Shown here one piece after another: positions 7,654 to 33,613 of a stretch of 64,000 bases of DNA (positions within the stretch are counted from its first letter, which is position 1; each line of letters opens with the position of its first letter). The notes below the pieces were generated by a model. The model saw nothing but the letters and a program-made list of their open reading frames with translations, was not told where the DNA came from and ran no database searches. A program made the translations under genes and the position numbers. Source of the stretch: Sphingobium sp. TKS (GTDB taxonomy: Bacteria > Pseudomonadota > Alphaproteobacteria > Sphingomonadales > Sphingomonadaceae); the NCBI RefSeq assembly GCF_001563265.1, contig NZ_CP005083.1:1367001-1431000 (forward strand). The letters run 5' to 3'.

Positions 7654-7729
<76 letters not shown>

Positions 7730-7818
7730 ATTTTCCCAAAACCTGCGGATTTCTGCCAATCGGCGGAAATCTGCGGCTTTTCTTGCCTCTTTGCTACACC
7801 AATGTGTAACACAGGGCC

Positions 7819-9639
7819 ATGGAAGACATGCCAAAACCGCCATATGTCGTTGAACGGGCGGGCAGCCGAAATCTCTATTATCGCAGGCGCTTTCCCGATG
7901 ACGTAGCCGCGCATCTGGGCCGGTCGGATTACAACAAGTCGCTGGGGGTGTCCGCGTGGAAAGACGCCGGAGAGCCTGCGCGCCAGCATGAGCGCAAATA
8001 TCATCTCGCGGTTCAGGCCGCTGAACGTGAAATCCATGAGGGACATGAGCGGATCAGCCATTCTGCGGCGAGAGAGCAGGGGCTAATCGTCCCGTCGCGC
8101 ATTTCCGCCCCGGCTCGGCCGACCGATCCCTCTCTGCCCTTGCTGACCAATTTGGATGCCCGGCGACTGGCGCGAGATTACCTGTTGGCGGCACGGTCGG
8201 AATTGGACGCCTTGCCTCCCGATGAGGCGATGGATGCCCAGCGCCGAGATGAATATATGATGGAGATCGAAGACCGCATCGCAATGTTTCGTTCTGCCGA
8301 AGACATCGGAACAATGCGGGTGGTGCAATCAATCGAAGCTGACCTGCTGAGCAAGGCTGGGATGCGTGCTGAGTTCCTATCGCCGGAAGCGCAGTTGCTG
8401 CGGCAACTGGTTCGCCGCGCCGCTTTGCAGATTGCCCAGATGGAGCGTCGCCACTTAGACGGGGACTATTCCAAGGGGTTTGATGATGCCGCGTTTCTGG
8501 AGCCTGTTGCAGCCTCCCCAGTCTATTCGCCATCACTGCCCGCGCGGAGCGGACCTACTTTCGGCGAAGTGCAGCAGGCATATCTGGACGCCCTCTTCCG
8601 CAAGGGGCAATCTGAGAAGACCAAAGATCGCTATCGCGCGGAAATGAAGCATATATTGGCGTTCTTTGGTTCGGATACCCGATTGGCGACGTTGACCAAG
8701 GCTGCCTGCGAGGGCTTCGCCGAAGTGATCGACAAACTGCCCCCCAATTTTGAGGATTTGATCCGAGGCGGAGCCGATCTTCGTTCAATCGCTGCCAGCC
8801 GATCCCCGAACAGCCCGGTGCTGTCGTATGCAACGCAAGAGAAATATTTGAGCCAGCTATCACGCTTCTGCGGCTGGGCAAGCGGCCATGACCATATCGC
8901 CAAAAACTATGCAGACGGGTTGATGCCTAATGGCAAGAAGCCCGACGGCTCTGTCGCGAAGATGCCATTCGAGGATGATGAGCTGCAACGCATCTTTCAG
9001 CGGCCCATATATAGCGGCTGCCGTAATGATCGCCACGGGTTCAGCGAACCGGGAGACGCCATTATCCGCCGTGCCCGCTATTGGGCACCCGTAATCGGCC
9101 TCTTTTCCGGCCTTCGCTGCGGCGAAATCTTGCAGCTAACGCCGTCGCACTTCCGCGTCTCCGAGACTGGCACACCTTTCATCGTTTTGACGAAGGACAT
9201 GAAGCTGAAAAACAGGAACGCCGAGCGAGAAATTCCCGTTCATCCTGCGCTGGTGGAGATCGGTTTGCTGGACTGGGTAGAACGGCGGCGCAGTCGGGCG
9301 GAGGAAACCTTGTTCCCAGAGGTGCCGATTAACAAATATGGCGATGCAAGTTCCTGCTTCGCCAAATGGTATCGAAGTGACCTCCAGCATTTCGGATTGG
9401 GGGATAGACGACCACTGCTGTCGTTTCATTCATTTCGCCATACCTTCAAGCGCGCGTTGGACCGGGCCGATGTGCCGGAAGAGAAAAAGGATGAGTTGTG
9501 CGGTTGGACGCGGGGTAAGAAAATCGGGCGGCGCTATGGCAGCGGCCTCGACGCCGATGTCTTAGTAGACGCTGTCACGAACGTTTCTTACGACCTCGAT
9601 CTCTCGCACTTGAAGCTTCACAGGCTGCTTCACGATTGA
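7819..9639 (+). CDS. Tyrosine-type site-specific integrase
   Basis: A 606-residue phage/island integrase. The N-terminal part (about 5-80) resembles the DUF6538 arm-binding region; a SAM-like core-binding domain lies at about 247-360 and the catalytic domain at about 385-575. Catalytic residues read from the sequence are R433 in [10 protein letters not shown]537 and R540 in FHSFRHTF, W563 in the second-His position, and nucleophile Y573 in RRYGSG. Its position just after tRNA-Ala suggests it inserted the DNA that follows. No excisionase is visible. It is followed by a perfect terminator hairpin. Confidence 0.92.
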
Positions 9640-9886: not shown

Positions 9887-11122
9887 ATGCACGATCCGAC
9901 GATACATCCGAAGTCGATTACACGGCAATTTAGATCGGCCGATTTCATAAAAGACCCAACCTTACTGACGCCGGATACCCTCAAGCAGGTAGTGAATGAC
10001 GCGGTGAGGCTTGGCTGTTCTGGGTTCGACGGAGTTGCGATCAAATCATCCGATCTTCGCGGTAAGTCGATATATCAGATTGATGGGCTGGCTCCCCAAT
10101 TAGTCCTCCGGCACATTACGAGTAATATCCGGCGGATTACCGGCGTTAAACAAGATGACAGACAGTTTATAGTGAACTGCATAAAAAAATTAGGGTCGGA
10201 AGGGACTAGCTTCCGAGTTTATAAATTCGATGTGAAGTCATTTTATGAGACTGTCCCCATCGACGATGTTTTGAAAATGCTTGAGAGAGACCTCGCATTT
10301 TCAGGACAGTCGGTGAGGGCGTTATCGTCTCTATTCGCTGATCTGGGGAAGTTAGGGGTTGCTGGTTTACCGCGCGGCATGGCGATTAGCGCAACTTTGT
10401 CAGAGTATCTGATGCGAAAATTTGACCGCATCGCCTCAAGCACGACCGGGGTCTGGTATTATTCGCGGTTTGTGGATGACATCATTATCATCACTGATGG
10501 TCGAGAGGATGAGCAGCCATTTAAAGTGCATATCGAAGCTGCGCTTCCAAAGGGGCTGAGGTTCAACGAAAAGTCACGTTGTTATGCCTTCGGGCAATTT
10601 AACGGCGCGAAGATGCCTTCGGATGAGCATAGCTTCGATTTTCTTGGTTATCACTTCGCTGTGAGCTGCGCGTTTCGTGGCAGCGATAATAAAATCCGGC
10701 GAGAAGTGAAGTTGGATTTGGCTCCGTCGAAAGTGAATAAAATAAAAACTCGGATAGCCAAGTCTCTAATACAGTATAAAGCTGATAATAATTTTGCCGA
10801 TTTGCGAGACAGGGTTCGGCTTTTGACGAGTAATTTTAGCTTCGAAGATCGGGTAACTGGAGCTAAAAGAAATTCAGGTGTGTATTTTAATTACCCACTC
10901 ATAACGGAACCCTCGTCAGGTGGTCTTAGGGCATTAGATAAATTCCTCCGAAACTCCATAATTTCATCAACTCCGAAAAATAAACTGTTCCCAGCCCTTG
11001 GGCCGGTTCAGGAAAAAGAGGTGATCCGATTGAGCTTCGTTCATGGTCACATAAAGAAGAGGTTTTTCTCTTTTGACCCAAAAAGATTAGCTCATCTGAC
11101 TGGATGTTGGTTTTATGCGTAA
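9887..11122 (+). CDS. drt3a: Antiviral-type reverse transcriptase, Drt3a (UG3)-like
   Basis: A 411-residue group II intron-like/unknown-group reverse transcriptase with no maturase, HNH or integrase domain. RT motifs in order: YKFDVKSFYETV (first catalytic Asp D115), GLPRGMAISATLSEYLM (about 160-176), RFVDDIIII with the catalytic pair D197-D198, and FLGYHF (motif 7). Size, the FVDD rather than YADD box, and direct overlap with a second, different RT gene (8 bases, same strand) fit the DRT type 3 defence module of paired RTs. Base composition is clearly more AT-rich than in neighbouring chromosomal genes, which agrees with transfer on an island. All catalytic residues are intact. A retron or abortive-infection RT is less likely because of the RT-RT pairing. 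Confidence 0.82.
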   Translation: MHDPTIHPKSITRQFRSADFIKDPTLLTPDTLKQVVNDAVRLGCSGFDGVAIKSSDLRGKSIYQIDGLAPQLVLRHITSNIRRITGVKQDDRQFIVNCIKKLGSEGTSFRVYKFDVKSFYETVPIDDVLKMLERDLAFSGQSVRALSSLFADLGKLGVAGLPRGMAISATLSEYLMRKFDRIASSTTGVWYYSRFVDDIIIITDGREDEQPFKVHIEAALPKGLRFNEKSRCYAFGQFNGAKMPSDEHSFDFLGYHFAVSCAFRGSDNKIRREVKLDLAPSKVNKIKTRIAKSLIQYKADNNFADLRDRVRLLTSNFSFEDRVTGAKRNSGVYFNYPLITEPSSGGLRALDKFLRNSIISSTPKNKLFPALGPVQEKEVIRLSFVHGHIKKRFFSFDPKRLAHLTGCWFYA

Positions 11123-12157
11123 ATCAGTCATAGCAAAAGGCAACATTCACCCTAACGATCATGCTCGCGCTCTCGTGACTGACACGTTGCCCGGCGACGT
11201 GCCCATAGTAGTCTCGAACGATGGCTTTTATAAGAATATCAAGGCTATCCCTCATGCCAACGGTCATTATCAAGAATTTATTGACCGACTGCTCAAAAGG
11301 GCGCGGCCTTATACAATTCCGTATCGCTATAACATACTAAGACCAAACGGATCACCGAGGAAGTTGAGCCTGATGCATCCTTCCGGTCAAATAGAAGTGG
11401 CCAATTTCTATCGCGAATACGGAAATTTGATCGCCTATTTTTGTCGCAAGTCGGATGCTTCTATTCGTTCACCTCGAAAGGTGGGCAGCCTATTTTTTGT
11501 CAGAGGTCGCGGATCAGAAAAAAATAAGCTGAAAGGCGCAGGAATAGATACAACAAATCTAGAAAATACAGTCTCAAATCCGGCATCTTATTTTGCATAT
11601 TCAGGGTATGATCGAATATACAAATTTTTCAATTCAACCGATTATATGCGGTTGGAAAAGAAATATGCCGTCATGTATTTCGCTGACATCTCTAAATGCT
11701 TCAACAGCATATACACCCATACATTATTCTGGGCCACGGCGGACGTTGCAACCGCCAAGGACAACACTTCTGTCGCAGGATTTAGTAACGCGTTCGATAA
11801 ACTGATGCAGTCCGTAAATTATAATGAAACCAACGGGATTTGCGTGGGTGCGGAAGTTAGTCGTATTTTTGCTGAGCTAATTTTGAGCGAAGTAGACAAA
11901 AGAGCCATTGAGAACCTTAGAAAGGATAGCTTGAACTTTAAGATAAATTATGAATTTCGTCGATATGTTGATGACTTCATTATTTTCGCTGATGATGACG
12001 TTGTTGCTCAAAAGGTTATGTCATCTATCAAGATCGCTCTTAGTGAATTTAATCTGCTTTTAAACGACGAGAAGACTGTTAAGGTATCTCGGCCATTTAT
12101 CACCGTTAAATCGCGAATTATTAGAGACGCGAACATCGCTTTATCGAATTTTTTTGA
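11115..12157 (+). pseudogene. drt3b: Drt3b-like reverse transcriptase, 3' end removed by an IS
   Basis: The second RT of the pair, starting with an ATG inside the last codons of drt3a. Native sequence runs for about 347 codons. The IS5-family element then begins and the frame continues into it for 16 foreign residues, stopping at 12209. The retained part includes FADISKCFNSIY (catalytic D191), the NGICVGAEVSRIF motif (about 240-252), RRYVDDFIIFADD (D286-D287) and LNDEKT. The palm is present, but sequence after about residue 347, where thumb and C-terminal regions would lie, is absent. As far as I recall, complete Drt3b proteins are considerably longer. The missing end is not found on the far side of the IS (that DNA is glcF) nor beside the second IS copy. 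AT-rich like drt3a. Probably non-functional. Confidence 0.8.
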
Positions 12158-13074
12158 GAGGCTGTGTCAGAACGGTCTCGTAATGGTGGACGATCGGGTT
12201 TCGATATGATTCCGAGGGGTTGCGACACCAACCTTGGAAGCCATCATGTGGAACCCGACCGCCCGCGTGCATCATAGCCGCGCACAGCTTCGCTATGGAA
12301 GCGATCTTACCGACGCGGAATGGCATTTGATCGAGCCATATTTGCCTGCGCCGTGCCAGCGCGGACGACGGCGATGCTGGCCGATGCGCGAGATCGTCGA
12401 AGCCATTTTCTATCTGCTGCGGACAGGATGTCCCTGGCGGCTTTTGCCCGACAGCTTTCCACCATGGCGCACGGTCTACCGGTGGTTCTGCACCTTGCGT
12501 GACGATGGGGTATTCGAAAGCCTCAATCATCATCTCGTGCAGATCGATCGCATCCGGACAGGGCGAGAACCAGCACCATCGGCCGCAGTCATCGACAGCC
12601 AGAGCGTGAAGACCTCCGAAGCAGGCGGACCTCGCGGTTACGACGCAGGCAAGAAGACCATGGGACGCAAGCGCCATGCAATGGTCGATACCGATGGTCG
12701 CGCCCTTATGATGCTGGTCCATCCTGCCGATGTGCAGGACCGCGACGGCGCGGTGCCCTTGCTCCAGCAGTCTCGCCAGCGGCATCCCTTCGTCGAGCGC
12801 ACCTATGCCGACAGCGCCTACAACAGCGATCGCGTCCGGGACGCCACCTCCATTACGATCGAAATCGTCCGCAAATTCGCCGATCAGACCGGCTTTGTCG
12901 TCCATCCCAGACGATGGGTCGTCGAACGCACCTTCGCATGGATGAACCGCAATCGTCGCCTCGCCAAAGACTTCGAGCGGACTATCAAATCCGCAACCGC
13001 GCTTCTCTATGCCGCCGCTGCCATCGTCCTCATCCGACGCATCGCTCGTTACGCATGAGATTCAAGACAGGCTC
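12158..13074 (+). mobile_element. IS5-family insertion sequence, copy A (917 bp)
   Basis: Ends are imperfect inverted repeats: GAGGCTGTGTCAGAA on the left, and on the right the complement of GAGCCTGTCTTGAATC. One transposase gene fills it. A second copy of identical length and identical transposase translation lies inverted at 32439-33355. The left flank is TGA and the right flank TTA, so there is no target duplication here, whereas copy B is flanked by TTA on both sides. This suggests copy A is the product of recombination between two insertions. Confidence 0.92.
12246..13058 (+). CDS. IS5-family transposase (copy A)
   Basis: A 270-residue single-ORF DDE transposase. An N-terminal DUF4096-like segment (DLTDAEWHLIEPYLP) is followed by the DDE_Tnp_1 domain. 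The catalytic triad is readable as D117 (AVIDSQSVKT), D189 (YADSAYNS) and E227 (RRWVVERTFAWM), followed by the Y/R-rich NRRLAKDFE stretch. No frameshift is needed, unlike the two-frame members of the IS427 subgroup that it otherwise resembles. ATG at 12246 was chosen over an in-frame TTG four codons upstream. Identical in translation to the copy at 32455-33267, so both are recent and probably active. Confidence 0.93.
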   Translation: MWNPTARVHHSRAQLRYGSDLTDAEWHLIEPYLPAPCQRGRRRCWPMREIVEAIFYLLRTGCPWRLLPDSFPPWRTVYRWFCTLRDDGVFESLNHHLVQIDRIRTGREPAPSAAVIDSQSVKTSEAGGPRGYDAGKKTMGRKRHAMVDTDGRALMMLVHPADVQDRDGAVPLLQQSRQRHPFVERTYADSAYNSDRVRDATSITIEIVRKFADQTGFVVHPRRWVVERTFAWMNRNRRLAKDFERTIKSATALLYAAAAIVLIRRIARYA

Positions 13075-13087
13075 TTAAAGGACGCCT

Positions 13088-17508: not shown

Positions 17509-19158
17509 TCATGGGAACAGGCCGCGCAAATGATTGGCCGCACCGACACGGCTCAAGGCCTCGATCATGGCGGCGGTGCGCAGGTCGACCTTTTCCGCCT
17601 GGGCGCGGCGCTGCGTGCGGGCCAGGGCGTCGGTCAATATGTCGCGCATGCGCAGGTTGATCTCCTCCAGCGGCCAGGTCAGGTTCTGAAGCCCCTGCAC
17701 CCATTCGAAATAGGATACGATGACGCCGCCGGCATTGGCCAATATGTCGGGCAGCACGATGATGCCGCGCGCTTGCAGCATGTCGTCGGCCTCCAGCGTC
17801 GTGGGACCATTGGCGCCCTCCGCCACGATCCGGCAGTTGATCCGCGAGGAATTTTCGGCGGTGATCTGGTTCTGCAAGGCGCAAGGCGCCAATATGTCGC
17901 AATGCAGTTCCAGCAGGTCGCGGCTGGGAATGATCTCGCCATAGGGGCAGCCGAAAAGCTGCCGGTGCTGGCGGACATGGTTTTTCAGCAGATCGATCGG
18001 CAGCCCCTTGGGGTTGTGCAGCGCCACGCTGACGTCGCTGATGCCGATGATCTTCGCTCCGGCTTCGGCCAGGAAGGTGGCGGCATGCATCCCGACATTG
18101 CCGAACCCCTGCACCACCGCGGTCGCGCCGTTGAGGTCAAGACCGATCTGGCGGCATGTTTCGCTCACCAGATAGGCGAGACCGCGCCCTGTCGCTTCGT
18201 GACGGCCCAGCGATCCGCCCAGCACCACCGGCTTGCCCGTCACGACCGACGGGACGGAATAGCCGACATGCTCGCTATAAGTGTCCATGATCCAGGCCAT
18301 GACCTGCGCGTCGGTGCCCATGTCGGGCGCCGGAATGTCCTTGTCGGGGCCGATCATGCCGATGAATTCCGACGTGTAGCGGCGGGTGAGCCGTTCCAGC
18401 TCATCCTTGCTGAGCGCGGCGGGATCGACCCTGACCCCGCCCTTGGCCCCGCCGAAGGGTAGTTTCGCAAGGGCGCATTTCCAGGTCATCCACATGGAGA
18501 GGGCAGCGACTTCGCCCAGGCTGACGTCGGGATGATAGCGCAGGCCGCCCTTGGTCGGCCCCATGTTCAACACATGCTGTACCCGATAGGCGAAGACGGT
18601 TTCGACCTGATCGATGCCGTCGCGCTTGAAGGGCAGGGCGGCGATCTGCGTCCGTTCGGGAAACAGCAGGCGTTGCCGGATATTGGGGTCCAGCCCGGCG
18701 ATATGGGCGGCCTTCAGAAATTGTTGCTGGGCGAGGTGGAGCATGGCCGACGACCATTCCGCCCCGCGCGCATGGGTCCGTTCCATCGCATAGTGGATCG
18801 ATCGGATCAGCGTCGCGCTGTTGATGCCGTCCTTGAGCAGATAATCCTCCGCCCCGCCTTCCACGGCCTTGCTGGCCAGCCCCACATCGTCCATCGCGCT
18901 CTGGACGATGACGGGGATGCGCAGGTCATGCGCCCGGACGCGATAGAAGGTGTCGAGCGCCGTGCTGTCCGGCAGCATCAGGTCGAGCAGCACCACATCG
19001 ATCCCGCCGACCTCCAGCCGTTCCAGCGCCTGTCCCAGCGTGCCGGCCAGCACGGTTTCGAACACCGGATTGTCGGATCGGCCGAGCAGCTTCTCGATCA
19101 GCCGCGAATAGACCGGATTATCCTCGACCAGCAGGACGGTGATGCGTTTGTGCGTCAT
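17509..19158 (-). CDS. Response-regulator receiver fused to glutamate dehydrogenase
   Basis: A 549-residue two-domain protein. Residues 1-125 form a complete CheY-like receiver: acidic pair E12-D13, phosphoacceptor D59 in VVLLDLMLPD, S87 and K109. A linker of about 20 residues follows. From about 145 to the end is a Glu/Leu/Phe/Val dehydrogenase: PTKGGLRYHP, catalytic K239 in PFGGAKGG, D279 in PAPDMGTD, and an NAD(P)-binding GFGNVG at 351-356. Family knowledge says the enzyme domain interconverts glutamate and 2-oxoglutarate plus ammonia. All key residues of both domains are present. It is the last gene of an operon encoding a CHASE hybrid kinase and an Hpt protein, 26 bases downstream of the Hpt gene with a GAGG ribosome-binding site. 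That phosphorylation of the receiver tunes dehydrogenase activity is inference. Confidence 0.93.
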   Translation of the reverse strand: MTHKRITVLLVEDNPVYSRLIEKLLGRSDNPVFETVLAGTLGQALERLEVGGIDVVLLDLMLPDSTALDTFYRVRAHDLRIPVIVQSAMDDVGLASKAVEGGAEDYLLKDGINSATLIRSIHYAMERTHARGAEWSSAMLHLAQQQFLKAAHIAGLDPNIRQRLLFPERTQIAALPFKRDGIDQVETVFAYRVQHVLNMGPTKGGLRYHPDVSLGEVAALSMWMTWKCALAKLPFGGAKGGVRVDPAALSKDELERLTRRYTSEFIGMIGPDKDIPAPDMGTDAQVMAWIMDTYSEHVGYSVPSVVTGKPVVLGGSLGRHEATGRGLAYLVSETCRQIGLDLNGATAVVQGFGNVGMHAATFLAEAGAKIIGISDVSVALHNPKGLPIDLLKNHVRQHRQLFGCPYGEIIPSRDLLELHCDILAPCALQNQITAENSSRINCRIVAEGANGPTTLEADDMLQARGIIVLPDILANAGGVIVSYFEWVQGLQNLTWPLEEINLRMRDILTDALARTQRRAQAEKVDLRTAAMIEALSRVGAANHLRGLFP

Positions 19159-19184
19159 GGCGTTTCACCTCAACTCTTGAGACC

Positions 19185-19562
19185 TCATGAATCTTGCGTG
19201 TTCCTGGCTTGATCCGAATTGCGTCCGCCGAGCCGCGCGGCCAGTTCTGCGAGCAGCCCTTCGATTTCGAAGCGCAACAGGTTCCAGCCGTCCTCCACGT
19301 CCCGGAAATTGCTGTCCGCGCCCATTTCTTCCAGGCGGAAAGCCGCGGCCCCCGCCTCGGATGCCGCGAAGATGTGCGCCGATCCTTTCAGGCTGTGCGC
19401 GGTGCGCTGAAGCTCCTGCGCGTTCCGTCCGTCGATCGCGGCGCGAACCTGCCGCATCATCTCCGGGCATTCGTCGATGAAGACGCCTGCCAGTTCGATC
19501 AGCAACTCCTCGTCGCCGTCGGCATTCTTAAGCGCCTTGGTCCAATCAAGAAGCGTGCTCAT
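19185..19562 (-). CDS. Stand-alone histidine phosphotransfer (Hpt) protein
   Basis: A 125-residue four-helix-bundle Hpt protein. The phosphorylatable residue is H56 in [10 protein letters not shown], preceded by a canonical [13 protein letters not shown] helix. It overlaps the stop of the hybrid kinase gene (ATGA), so the two are coupled. The kinase has two receiver domains and no Hpt of its own, so this protein would carry the phosphoryl group from the kinase's receiver to the receiver-dehydrogenase encoded next. Confidence 0.92.
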
Positions 19563-22369
19563 GGCCCGGACCCTTCCTCGCTATGGGGCTTCGCCGCGCT
19601 GGCGAACCGCCCCTCCACAACCTCGTAGAAATCCTCCGCCCGCAGCGGCTTGGAGATATAGTCGTCCATCCCCGCATTCAGGCAGCGTTCGCGGTCGCCG
19701 CGCATCGCATGCGCCGTCATGGCCACGATAGGGACATGATCCCCGGTGCCGCGTTCCCGTTCGCGAATGGCGGCCGTGGCCTGGAACCCGTCCATCACCG
19801 GCATCTGCACGTCCATCAGCACCACGTCGAAACGATCCTGCGCCAGCGCCTCGACCGCCTGCGCACCGTCCCCGACGATTTTCACCCAGTGCCCACGCTT
19901 TTCCAGCAGGCGGAGCGCGAGGCGCTGGTTGACGGCATTGTCCTCCGCGACCAGCACATGCAGCGACGGGCGGTCGTGAGGCGCCGGCTCGGGCAGAACC
20001 GTTTCCTCGCTCACCGTCACCTTCAGCACGGCGAATATGGCCTCCAGCAGTTCGGACTGGCGTATGGGCTTCAGCAGGAAGGCGGCAATGCCGGTCGCCC
20101 AGGTGCGGCGGGCCATCTCGTCCTTCTGCGCGGAAGAGAGCATGATCACCGCCGGACGGTCGGCCTCGCTGCCTCGCGCAATTTCCTTTGCGACGGCAAA
20201 ACCGTCCATGCCCGGCATCATCATGTCGAGCAGCACCAGCCGCAAGGGACGGCCTATCCCGGCCGCGTTGCGCAGCGCGGTCAGCGCCTTCGGACCGCTC
20301 TCGACCACCAGCGGCTTCATGCCCCAGCCGCGGATCATCTCGTCCAATATGCGGCGGTTGGTCGCATTGTCGTCGACGATCAGCACCGGCAGGCCGTGCA
20401 GCGAGGGCGGTTCGGCTGGCTGGCTGGCCGGTTCGCCCTGCGCCAGCGCGAAGGGGATGGTGAAGTGAAAGACGCTGCCCCGGCCGATGGTGCTATCCAG
20501 TTCCAGCCGTCCGCCCATCAACTGCACCAGTTGCGAGGCGATGGTGAGGCCAAGGCCCGTGCCGCCGAAGCGGCGGGTGAAGGAGGTGTCGGCCTGGGAA
20601 AAGGCTTCGAAGATCAGTTTCTGCTTGTCCGCCGCTATGCCGGGGCCGGTGTCGCTGACCGCGAAGTGCAGCCGGGCCTGCTGCCCCTCCATCCATTCGA
20701 CCGCCACATCCATCACCACCTCCCCCCGTTCGGTGAAGCGCAGCGCGTTGCCGACGAGGTTGATCACCACCTGCCGCAGCCGGTGCGGGTCGCCTTCCAG
20801 CGCATCGGGCACGCCGAGCGCGACATGGCAGGCGAGTTCGATCCCCTTTTCGGTGGCGCGTCCGGCAAAGGCCTGCAAGGTGTCGGCCAGCTCGTCGCGC
20901 AGGCTGAAGGCCACATGCTCCAGTTCCAGCCGCCCCGCCTCGATCTTCGAAAAGTCGAGAATGTCGTTGATGAGATGGAGCAGCGCGTCCGCCGATTGCG
21001 TGATCATGGTGAGATATTCGCGCTGCGATGCGGACAGCCTGGTATCGCTCAGCAGTTCCGACGCGCCGATGACGCCGTTCATGGGGGTGCGGATCTCATG
21101 ACTCATATTGGCGAGGAACTGGCTCTTGGCGCGGGTCGCGTCCTCCGCCCTGTTCTTGGCCGCGCGCAATTCGGTTTCGGATTCCTCCAGCTGGATCGTC
21201 CGTTCTTCCAGCCGCATGTTGACGCCGCGCAGCTCCGCCGTGCGCTGGGCCACCACCTGTTCGGTGCGCGCCCGCTGGTTGGCCAGCGAAATGAGATAGA
21301 TGAAGAGGATCAGGGTGACGGCCAGACCGCCGGCCAGCGCGATGGTGGGCGTGGTTGCCGCCCGCTTGTCGCCATAGGCGCCGGTCGCCGCGGTATAGAT
21401 GGTGAAGACGCTGTTGCCGATGACCAGGGAGCTGGAATGGAACAGGTCCGAATCCATGGCCGGACCGGCGCCGGGCCGCCGCTTCGTCTTGCTTCCGGGC
21501 GCCATGATCGACAGCAGCACCCGCTGCGCCGCCGGGGCGGAGGAATCGAGCAGATAGAGGTCCACGCCCTTCCTGGGCATCAGATCGATCGCGCCCTGGA
21601 TCACGTCACCGATGCGCAGCACGGCAACCACAAAGCCGGTGAGATGCGCGCGCCGCTGATCGACGGCGATCTGCTCCCCGCCGTCATAGACCGGCGCGAA
21701 GACGGCGATGCGGGGCGTATCGTCGCCCATTTGCGGCATGCGGATATGGGCGGCGGCGGCGATTTCGCCGCTGTCGCGGGCGGCCAGCATCGCCGCGTGC
21801 GCGAACGGGTCAGATCCCCAGTCGAAGCCCAGCATCTCCGGTGCGCCGCCCAGTGCGGATTCCGCGTAGAATATCGGGAAATAGGCGTCGCGCCGCTCCG
21901 CTCCGACGGTTGCCCCATGGGCATTGAGCTGGGTGAACCGGAAAGTCCCGCCATTCGCGCTTGCGCCCTTATCCTCCCACGCCTTGCGCTCGCCGCTGGG
22001 GACATAGGGCACCCATTGGACGGAATCGAGGCTGGACAGCCCGGTCAGATAGACGCTGGCAAAGGCCTTGAACTCGTCCGGGCCGACATCCTCCGATGCC
22101 TGATAATAGCCCAGCAGAGCCCTGATCACGCTGGTTTCCGAGAAGAATTGCCGCTTGATGCCTTCAGCGCGCTGCTCGGCCTCCAGGGTGAATTCGGTTT
22201 CCGTGGACCGGCCCTGTTCAATGACAAGCCATTGCCATACGCCCACCGTCAGCAGCAGGCTGACGATCCCGACCATCAGGGCGAACCAATATTTCACGCC
22301 ACCTTTCAACCAGTTCCCGGAACCGGTTGCCGTTGGCGCGGCGGAGGGAAGGGGGGCAGGTTCGTTCAT
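19559..22369 (-). CDS. CHASE-domain hybrid histidine kinase with two receivers
   Basis: A 936-residue membrane sensor kinase. Order: first membrane helix (about 27-50), periplasmic CHASE sensor domain (about 70-265, including [16 protein letters not shown] and VQWVPYVP), second helix (about 344-363), coiled coil, HisKA with H424 in [12 protein letters not shown], HATPase with [14 protein letters not shown] and GGTGLGL, then receiver 1 (D715 in [10 protein letters not shown]) and receiver 2 (D853 in [10 protein letters not shown]). CHASE domains sense small extracellular ligands; the ligand is unknown. The start at 22369 was chosen because its ATG overlaps the stop of the Sel1 gene (ATGA), matching the coupling of the next gene; the longer frame reads into Sel1 coding sequence. 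Confidence 0.93.
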
Positions 22370-23151
22370 GACTGACCGCCCCTTGCAGGAACGGGCTGCC
22401 ATTCGCGGACCTGACGCTGCGCCTCCGCAATTTGCGCGGGCGTCATGCTGCGCGACAGACGGTCGATATTCTGGCTTGCCTTGGTGCGGAGCGATGGCGC
22501 GCGGGCGTTGGCCTGGCCCAGCGCGAACCATTTATACGCCGCTACCGGATCTCGGGGCACTCCCTGGCCGCCGCCGTAGATAATGCCGAGCTGCACTTGC
22601 GCGTCGGCATTGCCCTGGGATGCGGCGCGTTCGAACCAATAGACGGCCTTTAGCTGATTCCTGGTGACGCCCCGGCCGATCATGTAAAGGACCGCCAGCG
22701 TGAATTGCGCGCCGATATGCCCTTGTTCGGCCGCTCTGGTGTACCATCGCGCGGCCTCCACCAGATCCTGCTCGACGCCGAATTCGCGCAGATAGATTTC
22801 GCCCAGATTGAACTGGGCGTCCGCCACCCCCAGCGCCGCGGCGCGGCGAAACCATTTCATCGCTTCCTTATAATCCTGCCCCGCGCCCTGACCGCGAAGA
22901 TACATGCGGCCAAGGCTGTTCTGCGCGCGCGGATCGCCATTATCCGCCAGCGACTGAAACAGGCGCATGGCATTGGCATAGTCGCCGCGCCTGTAGGCGG
23001 CGGCGGCGTCCTCGAAGGGCCCCGCCAGGCATGGAAGGGAGAAAAGGAGCAGGCCAACCAGCGACGCTCGCCAGACACAAAAAGGGGCCAAGGCGACAAA
23101 CGCGCTTCCCCCCTTTCTTCGGGGTTCCGTTTTTCCGCTCCGGCCCCACAT
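22366..23151 (-). CDS. Sel1-repeat (TPR-like) secreted protein
   Basis: A 261-residue protein with an N-terminal hydrophobic segment ([15 protein letters not shown], probably a signal peptide or anchor) followed by four or more Sel1 repeats of about 36 residues (for example [56 protein letters not shown]). Sel1 proteins are scaffolds for protein-protein contact and often accompany signalling systems. The start at 23151 has GAAAGG six bases upstream. It is the first gene of the kinase/Hpt/receiver-dehydrogenase operon and may act on the periplasmic sensor; that role is inference. An IS110 element sits immediately upstream. Confidence 0.85.
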
Positions 23152-23229
23152 GACGGCACCTTTCCGGCATATCGTGCCGGATCGAGTCCAGAATGGACGA
23201 GCAGGGACCATATTAACGCAGATAGGGCG

Positions 23230-23395: not shown

Positions 23396-24433
23396 ATGCG
23401 CCATTATGCCGGACTGGATGTATCGTTGGAAGAGACGGCGATCTGCATTGTCGATGACACGGGCAAAGTGATCCGTGAGCTTCGTGCCGCCAGTGACCCC
23501 GATGCACTGGTCGAGACGTTGACCGCTACCGGTCTGAGCTTCGAGCGCGTTGGTCTGGAGGCATGCTCGCTGTCATCGTGGCTGCATCAGGGTCTGACGC
23601 GCGCGGGCCTCCCGGCACTGTGCATCGAAACGCGAGCGGCCAAAGCGGCAATGGGTGCGATGCCCAACAAGACCGACCGTAACGACGCCCGTGGTCTGGC
23701 TCAGATCATCCGCACTGGTTGGTATCGCGTGGTCCACGTGAAGAGCATGCCGTGCCGATCGGCCCGCGCGCTGCTCGGTGCACGCCGGACGATGTTGAAT
23801 AAGCAGCGCGACATCGAGAACGCGGTGAGGGCCGTACTCCGCGAGGTCGGACTCAAGCTGGGAACACCGCCGCGCAAGCTCTTCGCCGGCCTGGTCCGCG
23901 AACTCGCGTCAGTCGACCCTGCCATCTCCGACATCATCGAGCCGCTGCTTGCGGTGCTCGATGTGATGGTGCGCCAGATCGAGCATTTGACGAAGCGCGT
24001 GCTGGAAGCGGTCAGGGTTGAGCCGATATGCCGACGGCTGATGACGGTGCCAGGTGTGGGGCCGCTGACCGCGCTCACCTTCCGGGCGACGGTCGATCTG
24101 CCCGAGCGCTTCCGACGATCCCGCGACGTCGGCGCTCATCTCGGGCTCACGCCCCGTCGCTACCAGTCTGGCGAAACGGATGTCCAAGGCCGCATCAGCC
24201 GATGTGGCGACGAACTCGCCCGTACCGCGTTGTACGAGGCGGCGCATACTCTGCTGACGCGCTGCCAGAAATGGTCGACGCTAAAGGCGTGGGGTATGCG
24301 CCTTGCCCAGCGGCGCGGCATGGCTAAAGCCCGCGTCGCCGTGGCTCGCAAGCTTGCCGTCATCTTGCACCGTATGTGGAGCGATGAGGCCGAGTTCCGC
24401 TGGGGTAAGTCACCGACGTTCACAGCAGCATGA
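23396..24433 (+). CDS. IS110-family transposase
   Basis: A 345-residue DEDD recombinase. The N-terminal RuvC-like domain has D8 in YAGLDVSLEET, the Glu in VGLEACSLSSWL and the Asp pair in NKTDRNDARGLAQ. A helical linker leads to the C-terminal transposase_20 domain with LMTVPGVGPLTAL, DVGAHLGLTPRR and QSGETDVQGRISRCGD, where the family's serine nucleophile is expected. No frameshift or stop. Ribosome-binding site GAGGAGGAG upstream. Full length, so probably active with its guide RNA. Confidence 0.93.
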   Translation: MRHYAGLDVSLEETAICIVDDTGKVIRELRAASDPDALVETLTATGLSFERVGLEACSLSSWLHQGLTRAGLPALCIETRAAKAAMGAMPNKTDRNDARGLAQIIRTGWYRVVHVKSMPCRSARALLGARRTMLNKQRDIENAVRAVLREVGLKLGTPPRKLFAGLVRELASVDPAISDIIEPLLAVLDVMVRQIEHLTKRVLEAVRVEPICRRLMTVPGVGPLTALTFRATVDLPERFRRSRDVGAHLGLTPRRYQSGETDVQGRISRCGDELARTALYEAAHTLLTRCQKWSTLKAWGMRLAQRRGMAKARVAVARKLAVILHRMWSDEAEFRWGKSPTFTAA

Positions 24434-31537: not shown

Positions 31538-31620
31538 CGCTGATAAAAAGAAAGGATCGGAGCCGAAACCATAGAGAGCTTCGCGCGTTGGCGGGAAGAT
31601 GATGGTTTAGGCAATTGGCT

Positions 31621-32232
31621 ATGAACCCTGGATGTCCAGTCTATATCGTGGACCACGACAGCAAGACGCGCCAATATCTGGTGCGCGTTTTGCGGCCGGA
31701 GGGGTTTGAGCCCATGCCCTTTTCCTGCGGCGCCGACTTTATCGAAGCGCTTGATTTCCTGGCCCCCGGCATTGCCCTTGTGGAATTGCACCTTGCGGAT
31801 ATGGATGGCGGGGCCGTTCAGGAGGAGCTTCTGTCCCGGCGGCTGGACATGCCCCTGATCGTGATGACGGAGTCACCCGACATTCCGACGGCGGTGGACG
31901 CCATCAAGCGGGGAGCGGCGGATTTTCTGGAAAAGCCCTTTGCCGACAGCCTGCTTTTCAAGATGCTTGCCGAGGTCCGGCCGATGTTGGAGCGGCGCGC
32001 CGAAATCCAGCGACGGAGGGAAAGTGCCGCGGCTCATCTGGAGAGCCTGACGAAAAGGGAATTGGACATCGTGCGGGCGCTTGGTTCCAGCAGCAGCAAT
32101 AGGGACGTGGCCGATGCGCTCCAAATCAGCGTCAGAACGGTCGAAATGCATCGCGCCAGCATCATGAAAAAATTCGGCGTAAAGAGGTTCTCGGAAATAA
32201 TCCTCGATCTTTCTGATTCAACTTTACCGTGA
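31621..32232 (+). CDS. FixJ/NarL-type response regulator with Glu at the phosphosite
   Basis: A 203-residue protein: receiver domain (about 5-120) followed by a LuxR-type helix-turn-helix (about 138-195, with LTKRELDIVRALGSSSSNRDVADAL and SVRTVEMHRASIMKKFG). In the receiver the phosphoacceptor Asp is replaced by E55 (ALVELHLADMDG), and the Pro after the loop is Ala. The acidic D11/D13, the Thr of VMTES and the Lys of LEKPF remain. Glu here often mimics phosphorylation, so the protein may bind DNA without a kinase. No kinase gene is adjacent. Start: ATG 31621; a TTG two codons earlier is unlikely. Confidence 0.85.
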   Translation: MNPGCPVYIVDHDSKTRQYLVRVLRPEGFEPMPFSCGADFIEALDFLAPGIALVELHLADMDGGAVQEELLSRRLDMPLIVMTESPDIPTAVDAIKRGAADFLEKPFADSLLFKMLAEVRPMLERRAEIQRRRESAAAHLESLTKRELDIVRALGSSSSNRDVADALQISVRTVEMHRASIMKKFGVKRFSEIILDLSDSTLP

Positions 32233-32438
32233 TCGTAAGATAATGTGAATTTTCGGTCTACCATCATTCAATATAAATTGGATTGGTAATGACAAAATAT
32301 GATGTTCCTGGCCCATCATTTGGGTTCGGAATTGTCAGAAAAAAGTGGACGGACCTCAGAGATTCATCTGACAATGAAACATCGCCTATATTCAGGCCAT
32401 GGTTAACATCGAAAAAACCAGATAAAGATATTGCATTA

Positions 32439-33355
32439 GAGCCTGTCTTGAATCTCATGCGTAACGAGCGATGCGTCGGATGAGGACGATGGCAGCGGCG
32501 GCATAGAGAAGCGCGGTTGCGGATTTGATAGTCCGCTCGAAGTCTTTGGCGAGGCGACGATTGCGGTTCATCCATGCGAAGGTGCGTTCGACGACCCATC
32601 GTCTGGGATGGACGACAAAGCCGGTCTGATCGGCGAATTTGCGGACGATTTCGATCGTAATGGAGGTGGCGTCCCGGACGCGATCGCTGTTGTAGGCGCT
32701 GTCGGCATAGGTGCGCTCGACGAAGGGATGCCGCTGGCGAGACTGCTGGAGCAAGGGCACCGCGCCGTCGCGGTCCTGCACATCGGCAGGATGGACCAGC
32801 ATCATAAGGGCGCGACCATCGGTATCGACCATTGCATGGCGCTTGCGTCCCATGGTCTTCTTGCCTGCGTCGTAACCGCGAGGTCCGCCTGCTTCGGAGG
32901 TCTTCACGCTCTGGCTGTCGATGACTGCGGCCGATGGTGCTGGTTCTCGCCCTGTCCGGATGCGATCGATCTGCACGAGATGATGATTGAGGCTTTCGAA
33001 TACCCCATCGTCACGCAAGGTGCAGAACCACCGGTAGACCGTGCGCCATGGTGGAAAGCTGTCGGGCAAAAGCCGCCAGGGACATCCTGTCCGCAGCAGA
33101 TAGAAAATGGCTTCGACGATCTCGCGCATCGGCCAGCATCGCCGTCGTCCGCGCTGGCACGGCGCAGGCAAATATGGCTCGATCAAATGCCATTCCGCGT
33201 CGGTAAGATCGCTTCCATAGCGAAGCTGTGCGCGGCTATGATGCACGCGGGCGGTCGGGTTCCACATGATGGCTTCCAAGGTTGGTGTCGCAACCCCTCG
33301 GAATCATATCGAAACCCGATCGTCCACCATTACGAGACCGTTCTGACACAGCCTC
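32439..33355 (-). mobile_element. IS5-family insertion sequence, copy B (917 bp)
   Basis: Same length, ends and transposase translation as the copy at 12158-13074, in the opposite orientation. Flanked by the 3-base direct repeat TTA (32436-32438 and 33356-33358), showing a simple insertion with a 3-bp target duplication of the TNA type. Confidence 0.93.
32455..33267 (-). CDS. IS5-family transposase (copy B)
   Basis: A 270-residue DDE transposase whose translation is identical to that of copy A (triad D117, D189, E227). The ATG at 33267 corresponds to 12246 in copy A. Intact frame; recent duplication within the genome. Confidence 0.93.
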   Translation of the reverse strand: MWNPTARVHHSRAQLRYGSDLTDAEWHLIEPYLPAPCQRGRRRCWPMREIVEAIFYLLRTGCPWRLLPDSFPPWRTVYRWFCTLRDDGVFESLNHHLVQIDRIRTGREPAPSAAVIDSQSVKTSEAGGPRGYDAGKKTMGRKRHAMVDTDGRALMMLVHPADVQDRDGAVPLLQQSRQRHPFVERTYADSAYNSDRVRDATSITIEIVRKFADQTGFVVHPRRWVVERTFAWMNRNRRLAKDFERTIKSATALLYAAAAIVLIRRIARYA

Positions 33356-33613
33356 TTATATGACGATGATTATGGTGAATATTTCAAATCGAAGGAGGAA
33401 TGCGAAAAAATAATAGACCGATATAAGAAGATACAGCAGGCCATAGCTGCTTCTGAGAATAAGGGTAGGGTAGATCGCTTATGCTGAACGCATGCTCCCC
33501 GCGCCATCGATAATGGGTCGGTGCGCCGTGCCTTGTTAAATCTTCACCGTTTTTTCGCCAGCCCCAAACCCCCGCGACAGGAATCTCTTGTCTTTCGTCG
33601 GGAGAGCGTGCGA

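Follow-up and report, generated by a model that had tools for sequence, protein, structure and literature searches.

Gene content and domain anatomy of the locus

The window, a stretch of 64,000 nucleotides from Sphingobium sp. TKS (contig NZ_CP005083.1), carries at positions 17509-23211 of its minus strand a set of four genes coding, in this order, for a Sel1-repeat protein, a CHASE hybrid histidine kinase, an Hpt protein and a receiver domain fused to a glutamate dehydrogenase (REC-GDH). The open reading frames and Pfam searches bear out the four-gene operon proposed by the initial annotation, including a kinase in which Pfam finds no Hpt domain; the Sel1 gene starts at 23211 in the longest ORF and at 23151 in that annotation. 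For the kinase, the longest ORF is 19559-22531(-), and the likelier start is the ATG at 22369, which overlaps the stop codon of Sel1. Hpt likewise starts with an ATG (19562) that overlaps the kinase stop, and a gap of 26 nt separates Hpt from REC-GDH. Given these start/stop overlaps and the 26-nt gap, the genes look translationally coupled, in an operon-like layout.

REC-GDH (549 aa; 17509..19158, minus strand) consists of a receiver (residues about 1-125), a short helix-to-helix junction (about 126-138) and a hexameric-type glutamate dehydrogenase (139-549). Pfam recognized Response_reg at 8-111 (8e-16), ELFV_dehydrog_N at 167-295 (1.2e-50) and ELFV_dehydrog at 314-546 (2e-74), both ELFV domains scoring above the Pfam cut-off; the NCBIfam equivalog cut-offs for GDH were missed (GluDhGdhB_Halo, 465.1 of 620 bits; GdhA_Arch, 410.6 of 750 bits). 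The top solved relative was the GDH structure PDB 1b26, which aligns end-to-end over residues 139-549 (E 6e-125). This structure and 1b3b, which we take to come from T. maritima, are hexameric small GDHs that share the active-site lysines, aspartate and serine with residues 139-549 of the window protein but have no receiver. PDB 3aoe, presumably a Thermus GdhA/GdhB-type GDH, was also among the structure matches; in Thermus GdhA/GdhB, a regulatory GDH subunit stands beside a catalytic one, with no receiver domain.

The receiver residues E12, D13, D59, S87 and K109 are all there. The GDH active-site residues K203, K227, K239, D279 and S482 are intact together with the GxGxxG motif, which confirms the K239, D279 and GxGxxG reported initially; their roles (substrate lysines, catalytic Lys and Asp, glutamate-pocket Ser) are presumably those known from C. 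symbiosum GDH. This intact active site and the low dN/dS of the GDH part (0.016 in comparison with one Sphingobium relative and 0.047 with another) rule out that the enzyme is a degenerate remnant. In an AlphaFold model of the fusion (mean pLDDT 66.8), helices span 114-134 and 138-154, with pLDDT below 50 at 130-137. GDH domain I is mostly below 50 as well, and the model is thus too weak there to support a statement on contact between receiver and enzyme.

According to Pfam, the kinase (19559..22369, minus strand) contains CHASE, HisKA and HATPase_c domains and two Response_reg stretches. The phospho-residues put forward for the relay were all confirmed, namely H424, D715 and D853 of the kinase, numbered from the likelier start at 22369, which is residue 55 in the longest ORF, H56 of the stand-alone Hpt protein (125 aa; 19185..19562, minus strand; Pfam Hpt, 6e-14) and D59 of the receiver. 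The HisKA histidine, both kinase receiver aspartates and the Hpt histidine are kept in 15/15 systems aligned. The kinase and Hpt both had BarA as their top NCBIfam match, at 485 and 30 of 890 bits, respectively, below the cut-off in each case. Hydrophobic segments at 78-105 and 391-421 (numbering of the 990-aa ORF) lie on either side of CHASE, and this sensor is probably periplasmic in the window genome.

The Sel1-repeat protein (22366..23211, minus strand; Pfam Sel1 repeats, 2.2e-41) has a hydrophobic segment at its N-terminus (residues 37-64). A phmmer match to Sel1 adjoins the kinase in four Sphingobium loci and in 0 of the other 16 loci scanned (L036-L038 lay outside the scan); this restriction to Sphingobium among the loci scanned rules out Sel1 as a core part of the relay. 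A possible role is that of an extracytoplasmic (periplasmic) partner of the CHASE sensor. ExoR, which controls the ExoS kinase, is also a Sel1-repeat protein found beside a kinase with an extracytoplasmic sensor, an analogy only, its NCBIfam score (48.6 of 450 bits) being far under the cut-off.

Distribution of the fusion and conservation of its partners

Counting the window genome wherever it was sampled, the full-length fusion occurs in 4/61 genomes of the relatives sample, 8/94 genomes from the genus (the own genome among them), 5/151 genomes of the family of G787, 2/398 genomes of the phylum sample (own genome included) and 1/385 genomes of the class sample, the one being the own genome. 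Nine Sinorhizobium/Ensifer plasmid records are also listed with the fusion. A scan of contigs returned at least 80 loci, with REC-GDH in at least 12, and 68 of the loci listed have no GDH. Among the matches listed, REC-GDH hosts are Sphingobium, Microbulbifer, Sinorhizobium (two), Aestuariicella, Ruegeria, Zobellella and Halomonas, along with metagenome-assembled genomes (MAGs) labelled Gammaproteobacteria, Gemmatimonadota, Myxococcales or 'bacterium'; L069, L071, L076 and L079 are MAG contigs, L079 being a single sequence on a 5.2-kb contig. The fusion is rare yet found across several phyla. The initial annotation had raised the possibility that the receiver-GDH junction was an assembly frameshift or absent from relatives; neither is the case, since the same full-length frame recurs in other genomes of the genus, in Alpha- and Gammaproteobacteria and in a Gemmatimonadota MAG.

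The acidic pair, D59, S/T87 and K109 are kept in 22/22 fusions aligned and also in L079. Length is 549 aa in 19/22 fusions, starts having been set partly by alignment; L076 has 547 aa, and L156 and L157 have 542. This near-fixed length indicates that the last receiver helix joins the first GDH helix almost directly.

We compared the neighbours of 23 fusion loci (the window, L068-L079, L036-L038 and L153-L159), after dropping L007-L009 as shorter copies of L068, L158 and L159; the comparison leaves out the Sphingobium fusions L182-L185 and the plasmid matches H3-H7 and H9. A hybrid kinase adjoins the fusion in 22/23 loci, and the full HisKA-HATPase-REC-REC and Hpt set is present in 21/23. Hpt is fused at the C-terminus of the kinase in 16 of these 21 and separate in five (Microbulbifer L070 and the four Sphingobium loci). 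The L079 contig breaks off within the kinase, past its first receiver, and in L069 the kinase is convergent with the fusion gene; L076 has no kinase beside the fusion. The sensor regions vary, comprising CHASE, CHASE with GAF and PAS, PAS_7 pairs, PAS_3, GAF, a YfiR-like DUF4154 or no Pfam match, and hydrophobic segments are strong in some partner kinases and absent from others. The sensor parts are thus variable and the relay core is constant.

As controls, we used 20 stand-alone GDH loci chosen from the matches in the relatives and class samples, with flanks of about 5 kb on each side (less for L166). Kinases were sought with the core of the window kinase as query, so that other kinase families could have been missed in these controls. 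A relay-type kinase is adjacent to the stand-alone GDH in 0/20 control loci, and a kinase of any kind in 1/20 (L169, where the hybrid kinase 55 nt away is of another type); at L160 and L163, fragments of kinases lie some 4 kb off, at the end of the stretch. The co-occurrence of kinase and Hpt with REC-ELFV_dehydrog architectures, which the initial annotation had singled out for checking, is therefore pronounced (Fisher p 5e-10 for 22/23 vs 1/20 and 3e-10 for 21/23 vs 0/20), bearing in mind that the loci are not independent, several coming from one genus (four from Sphingobium, five from Sinorhizobium/Ensifer). In genome G949, which is outside the control set, an unfused GDH of 487 aa lies 1.65 kb downstream of a HisKA-REC-REC-Hpt kinase of 1270 aa, and hence the control rate is not strictly zero. 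The pairing of kinase and fusion is conserved.

These data also bear on the possibility that the fusion is vestigial or arose by chance, with no functional coupling between its parts. The patchy spread in the class and phylum samples, both of which include the own genome, would fit such an origin, but the recurrent length, the intact receiver residues in all fusions, the adjacent kinase and purifying selection speak against it, and we consider it highly improbable. Selection is apparent from dN/dS values well below 1 for REC and GDH in six pairs, with GDH at 0.016-0.148 in the five pairs of fusions that have a full active site.

Kinase and fusion also appear to share their history. With the window kinase core as query, the fusion-adjacent kinase is the top match in 13/14 genomes, mostly far above the next paralogue (G787, 1.9e-172 then 2.5e-94; G945 shows a narrower margin, 1e-162 then 6e-135). 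The one genome that deviates, G949, holds the orphan fusion L076 and has kinases on other contigs at 1.3e-162 and 2e-159. In the kinase tree, most partner kinases fall together with no strict single clade (20 partner rows, 3 changes), the intruders being two paralogues from a Microbulbifer genome and the G949 kinases. The 22 fused GDH domains (L079 left out) form one clade against the 20 stand-alone GDHs, with support 100/98. Furthermore, REC distances correlate with those of Hpt (r 0.81) and of the kinase core (r 0.86; Mantel p 1e-4, n=15); such correlated distances speak of joint descent rather than contact and may reflect joint inheritance only.

The neighbourhoods are also relevant to a different role for REC-GDH, that of a phosphate sink or feedback sensor in which the state of the GDH (with substrate or cofactor bound) alters dephosphorylation of the receiver and so reports metabolic status to the kinase, whose true output lies elsewhere. 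Two receivers in the kinase and one on the GDH would permit a branched relay, and some versions have PAS/GAF sensors and lack a strong hydrophobic stretch. Against this role, no other receiver gene recurs by the kinase in the loci scanned with a REC query, and among these loci just one response regulator gene of its own was found, in L070 at about 2 kb from the kinase; we consider such a sink or sensor function improbable.

Fusions without the GDH active site and other GDHs per genome

The GDH active site is complete in 20/23 fusions. The three others (L156, L157 and L079) belong to two lineages and have kept the receiver and kinase. L156 and L157, which represent two congeneric species in the family of G787, carry K203L, K227Q, D279G and S482A, with the receiver residues and K239 unchanged; both ELFV domains of L156 remain recognizable (3e-45 and 9e-36). 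Between these two loci, dN/dS is 0.135 for the dead GDH part, 0.06 for REC and 0.16 for the kinase, a GDH value which indicates that the dead domain is maintained by purifying selection. L079, from a Myxococcales MAG, is shortened to 477 aa in one open frame, carries K203L, K227Q and K239Q, is missing the D279 region and neighbours a CHASE kinase. A tree of receiver and linker groups L156 and L157 with five catalytic relatives in a set of seven rows (96/96) and forces two separate changes, with the caveat that L079, known from one MAG sequence, sits on a long branch. As judged from predicted active sites, these cases show that the relay can persist once catalysis is gone. The three fusions that lost the active site with receiver and kinase kept argue against catalysis as the universal output.

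Both the L156 and L157 genomes have a separate 457-aa GDH, and the L079 genome has two further strong GDH matches. Among 22 genome handles, of which G944 and G026 are probably one genome, 11 have no second small GDH (E <1e-50), their other ELFV matches being weaker or of the large type, which makes the fusion likely to be the working GDH there. The L069 genome has no other strong GDH match, and that of L073 has a 331-aa partial match at 2e-49. The window genome has a second GDH of 484 aa; a 1577-aa frame that matches weakly is taken as the large NAD-GDH.

Taken from this side, the GDH fold could be a signalling scaffold or metabolite sensor, its catalysis retained in most lineages without being the point; a hexamer would read the phosphorylated receiver and pocket ligands (glutamate, 2-oxoglutarate, NAD(P)H), and act on other proteins or mix with catalytic GDH. 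The two pseudoenzyme lineages, the constraint on their GDH part and the additional GDHs in their genomes all favour this. GdhZ, of the large NAD-GDH type and with no receiver domain, offers an analogy from Caulobacter. In that bacterium, citrate synthase CitA acts in cell-cycle control independently of its catalysis, and GdhZ is described as a moonlighting enzyme (PMC7083601), a GDH polypeptide in regulation as would be the case here. Conversely, the preponderance of full active sites, the low dN/dS of the GDH part where these are full, and the genome handles in which the fusion is the one strong small GDH weigh against this scaffold or sensor function, and the pseudoenzyme branch may be a late re-use; we rank it second among the readings and regard it as doubtful for the fusions as a whole. 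A narrower proposal is that a captured metabolic enzyme turned pseudoenzyme in some lineages, where phospho-receiver and GDH pocket would integrate metabolite and signal without catalysis, possibly by joining catalytic GDH in mixed hexamers. This is possible, and we put it forward tentatively.

A putative phosphorelay to GDH and its relation to known systems

We favour, with somewhat more confidence than doubt, a conserved His-Asp-His-Asp relay dedicated to a receiver-fused GDH, with allosteric control of the hexamer and catalysis as the usual but not the sole output. Read from the domains, residues, gene coupling, conserved pairing and co-inheritance observed in the sequences, a chain from kinase to Hpt to D59 is the simplest reading; it is well supported by this anatomy, and the kinase-Hpt-receiver topology proposed initially thus gains strong support from the conserved partners and phospho-residues. 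Phosphotransfer and its order, the hexamer, any effect on the enzyme and the signal are what we infer from it. On a sensor signal, the kinase would autophosphorylate at H424 and pass the phosphoryl group to D715 and/or D853 in its own receivers, from where H56 of Hpt would carry it to D59 of the receiver on GDH. Phosphorylation of D59 would shift the packing of the receiver on or around the GDH hexamer and thereby switch the activity of the GDH, its ligand affinity or its assembly.

In most lineages, the interconversion of glutamate and 2-oxoglutarate would thus be tuned without transcription. The direct control of nitrogen/carbon flux that had been suggested as the output fits the intact active sites of 20/23 fusions and does not fit the three losses. 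In the two lineages concerned, the GDH part would be a pseudoenzyme and the switched GDH fold itself the output, as a scaffold, a metabolite sensor or a subunit mixing with catalytic GDH. The relay may therefore act on the GDH fold as a regulated scaffold or sensor as well as an enzyme. If the proposed relay is correct, an extracellular or cytoplasmic signal would be wired onto the glutamate/2-oxoglutarate node by aspartate phosphorylation of an enzyme, bypassing transcription, and the fusion would offer a ready receiver-enzyme chassis. The natural variants, with swapped sensors, fused or free Hpt and live or dead GDH, make this reading testable, the live and dead versions separating a catalytic from a regulatory role.

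The system resembles phosphorelays of the BarA/TorS/ArcB type in its kinase core, receiver layout and kinds of phospho-residues, but its final receiver bears a metabolic dehydrogenase instead of a DNA-binding or second-messenger domain. Like CheB, PleD/GGDEF and HD-GYP regulators, it joins a receiver to an enzyme; the enzymatic outputs of those regulators act on signalling molecules or chemoreceptors. The actinobacterial PknG-GarA/OdhI pathway also leads from a kinase to the same 2-oxoglutarate/glutamate node post-translationally. GDH is a target of GarA, and PknG-GarA consists of a Ser/Thr kinase and a separate FHA protein, unlike the His-Asp relay and covalent fusion proposed here.

No functional study of a receiver-GDH protein was found in the literature searched, preprints and most subscription papers lying outside it, and the accessible parts of PMC2864759 and PMC1183210 contain nothing on the fusion. 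The claim that no such system has been characterized agrees with this search, but the P2CS catalogue of 2009 lists 'glutamate dehydrogenase, EC 1.4.1.3, probable' among two-component enzymes (PMC2716373), which suggests that the receiver-GDH combination was foreseen then; the database section on that entry names neither a GDH protein nor a kinase partner and gives no function. Another report describes a gdhB-hp-pleD cluster in Ehrlichia and Wolbachia in which, as here, a GDH gene is predicted to share an operon with a response regulator, but as separate genes with no fusion and with GGDEF on the regulator (PMC4426382).

No metabolic neighbourhood shared across loci emerged from the ten flanking proteins scanned with Pfam. 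Flanking genes include TRAP DctM in L153, L155 and L075, TctA in L070 and methylaspartate genes in L038. Elsewhere in the window, the ORFs at 9887-12209 encode reverse transcriptases.

Insertion sequences around the REC-GDH operon

The REC-GDH operon lies inside a region of approximately 19 kb bounded by the two copies of an exact 919-nt inverted repeat (window positions 12157-13075 and 32438-33356), with IS4/5-type transposases at both ends. Judging from the sequence, this IS4/5-flanked region is composite-transposon-like in layout. Furthermore, an IS110-type transposase gene (23396-24433, + strand) is located directly upstream of the operon, and a gene approximately 8 kb from the operon (31615-32232, + strand) encodes a response regulator whose DNA-binding domain is of the LuxR type.

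DRT3 genes and a putative tRNA-anchored island

Two neighbouring reverse transcriptase genes (9887-12209) encode proteins that match those of the anti-phage DRT3 system. The first one (9887-11122, + strand) matches Drt3a over nearly its full length (6e-123). The second one (11115-12209, + strand) matches Drt3b (9e-134) at profile positions 4-349 of 651 only, and the match stops directly ahead of an IS copy; Drt3b therefore looks interrupted. A tRNA-Ala(CGC) gene followed by an integrase-like ORF (7654-9639; ORF at 7819-9639, weak Phage_integrase match) suggests that the DRT3 genes sit in a tRNA-anchored island.

GDH and kinase neighbourhoods in other genomes

At the control locus L169 (6249-8789, - strand), a PAS-type hybrid kinase gene is convergent with a stand-alone GDH gene 55 nt away. 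No Hpt match was found at this pair, and the adjacency is possibly due to chance. Genome G949 holds both an orphan REC-GDH gene (L076) and a second locus (L246, 841-7768). At the latter, a hybrid kinase of 1270 aa, matching REC-REC and Hpt, is encoded 1.65 kb upstream of an unfused 487-aa GDH. Methylaspartate/glutamate mutase genes, which represent a glutamate breakdown route, are found at L038 (388-5727), approximately 4 kb from the Ensifer plasmid REC-GDH gene.
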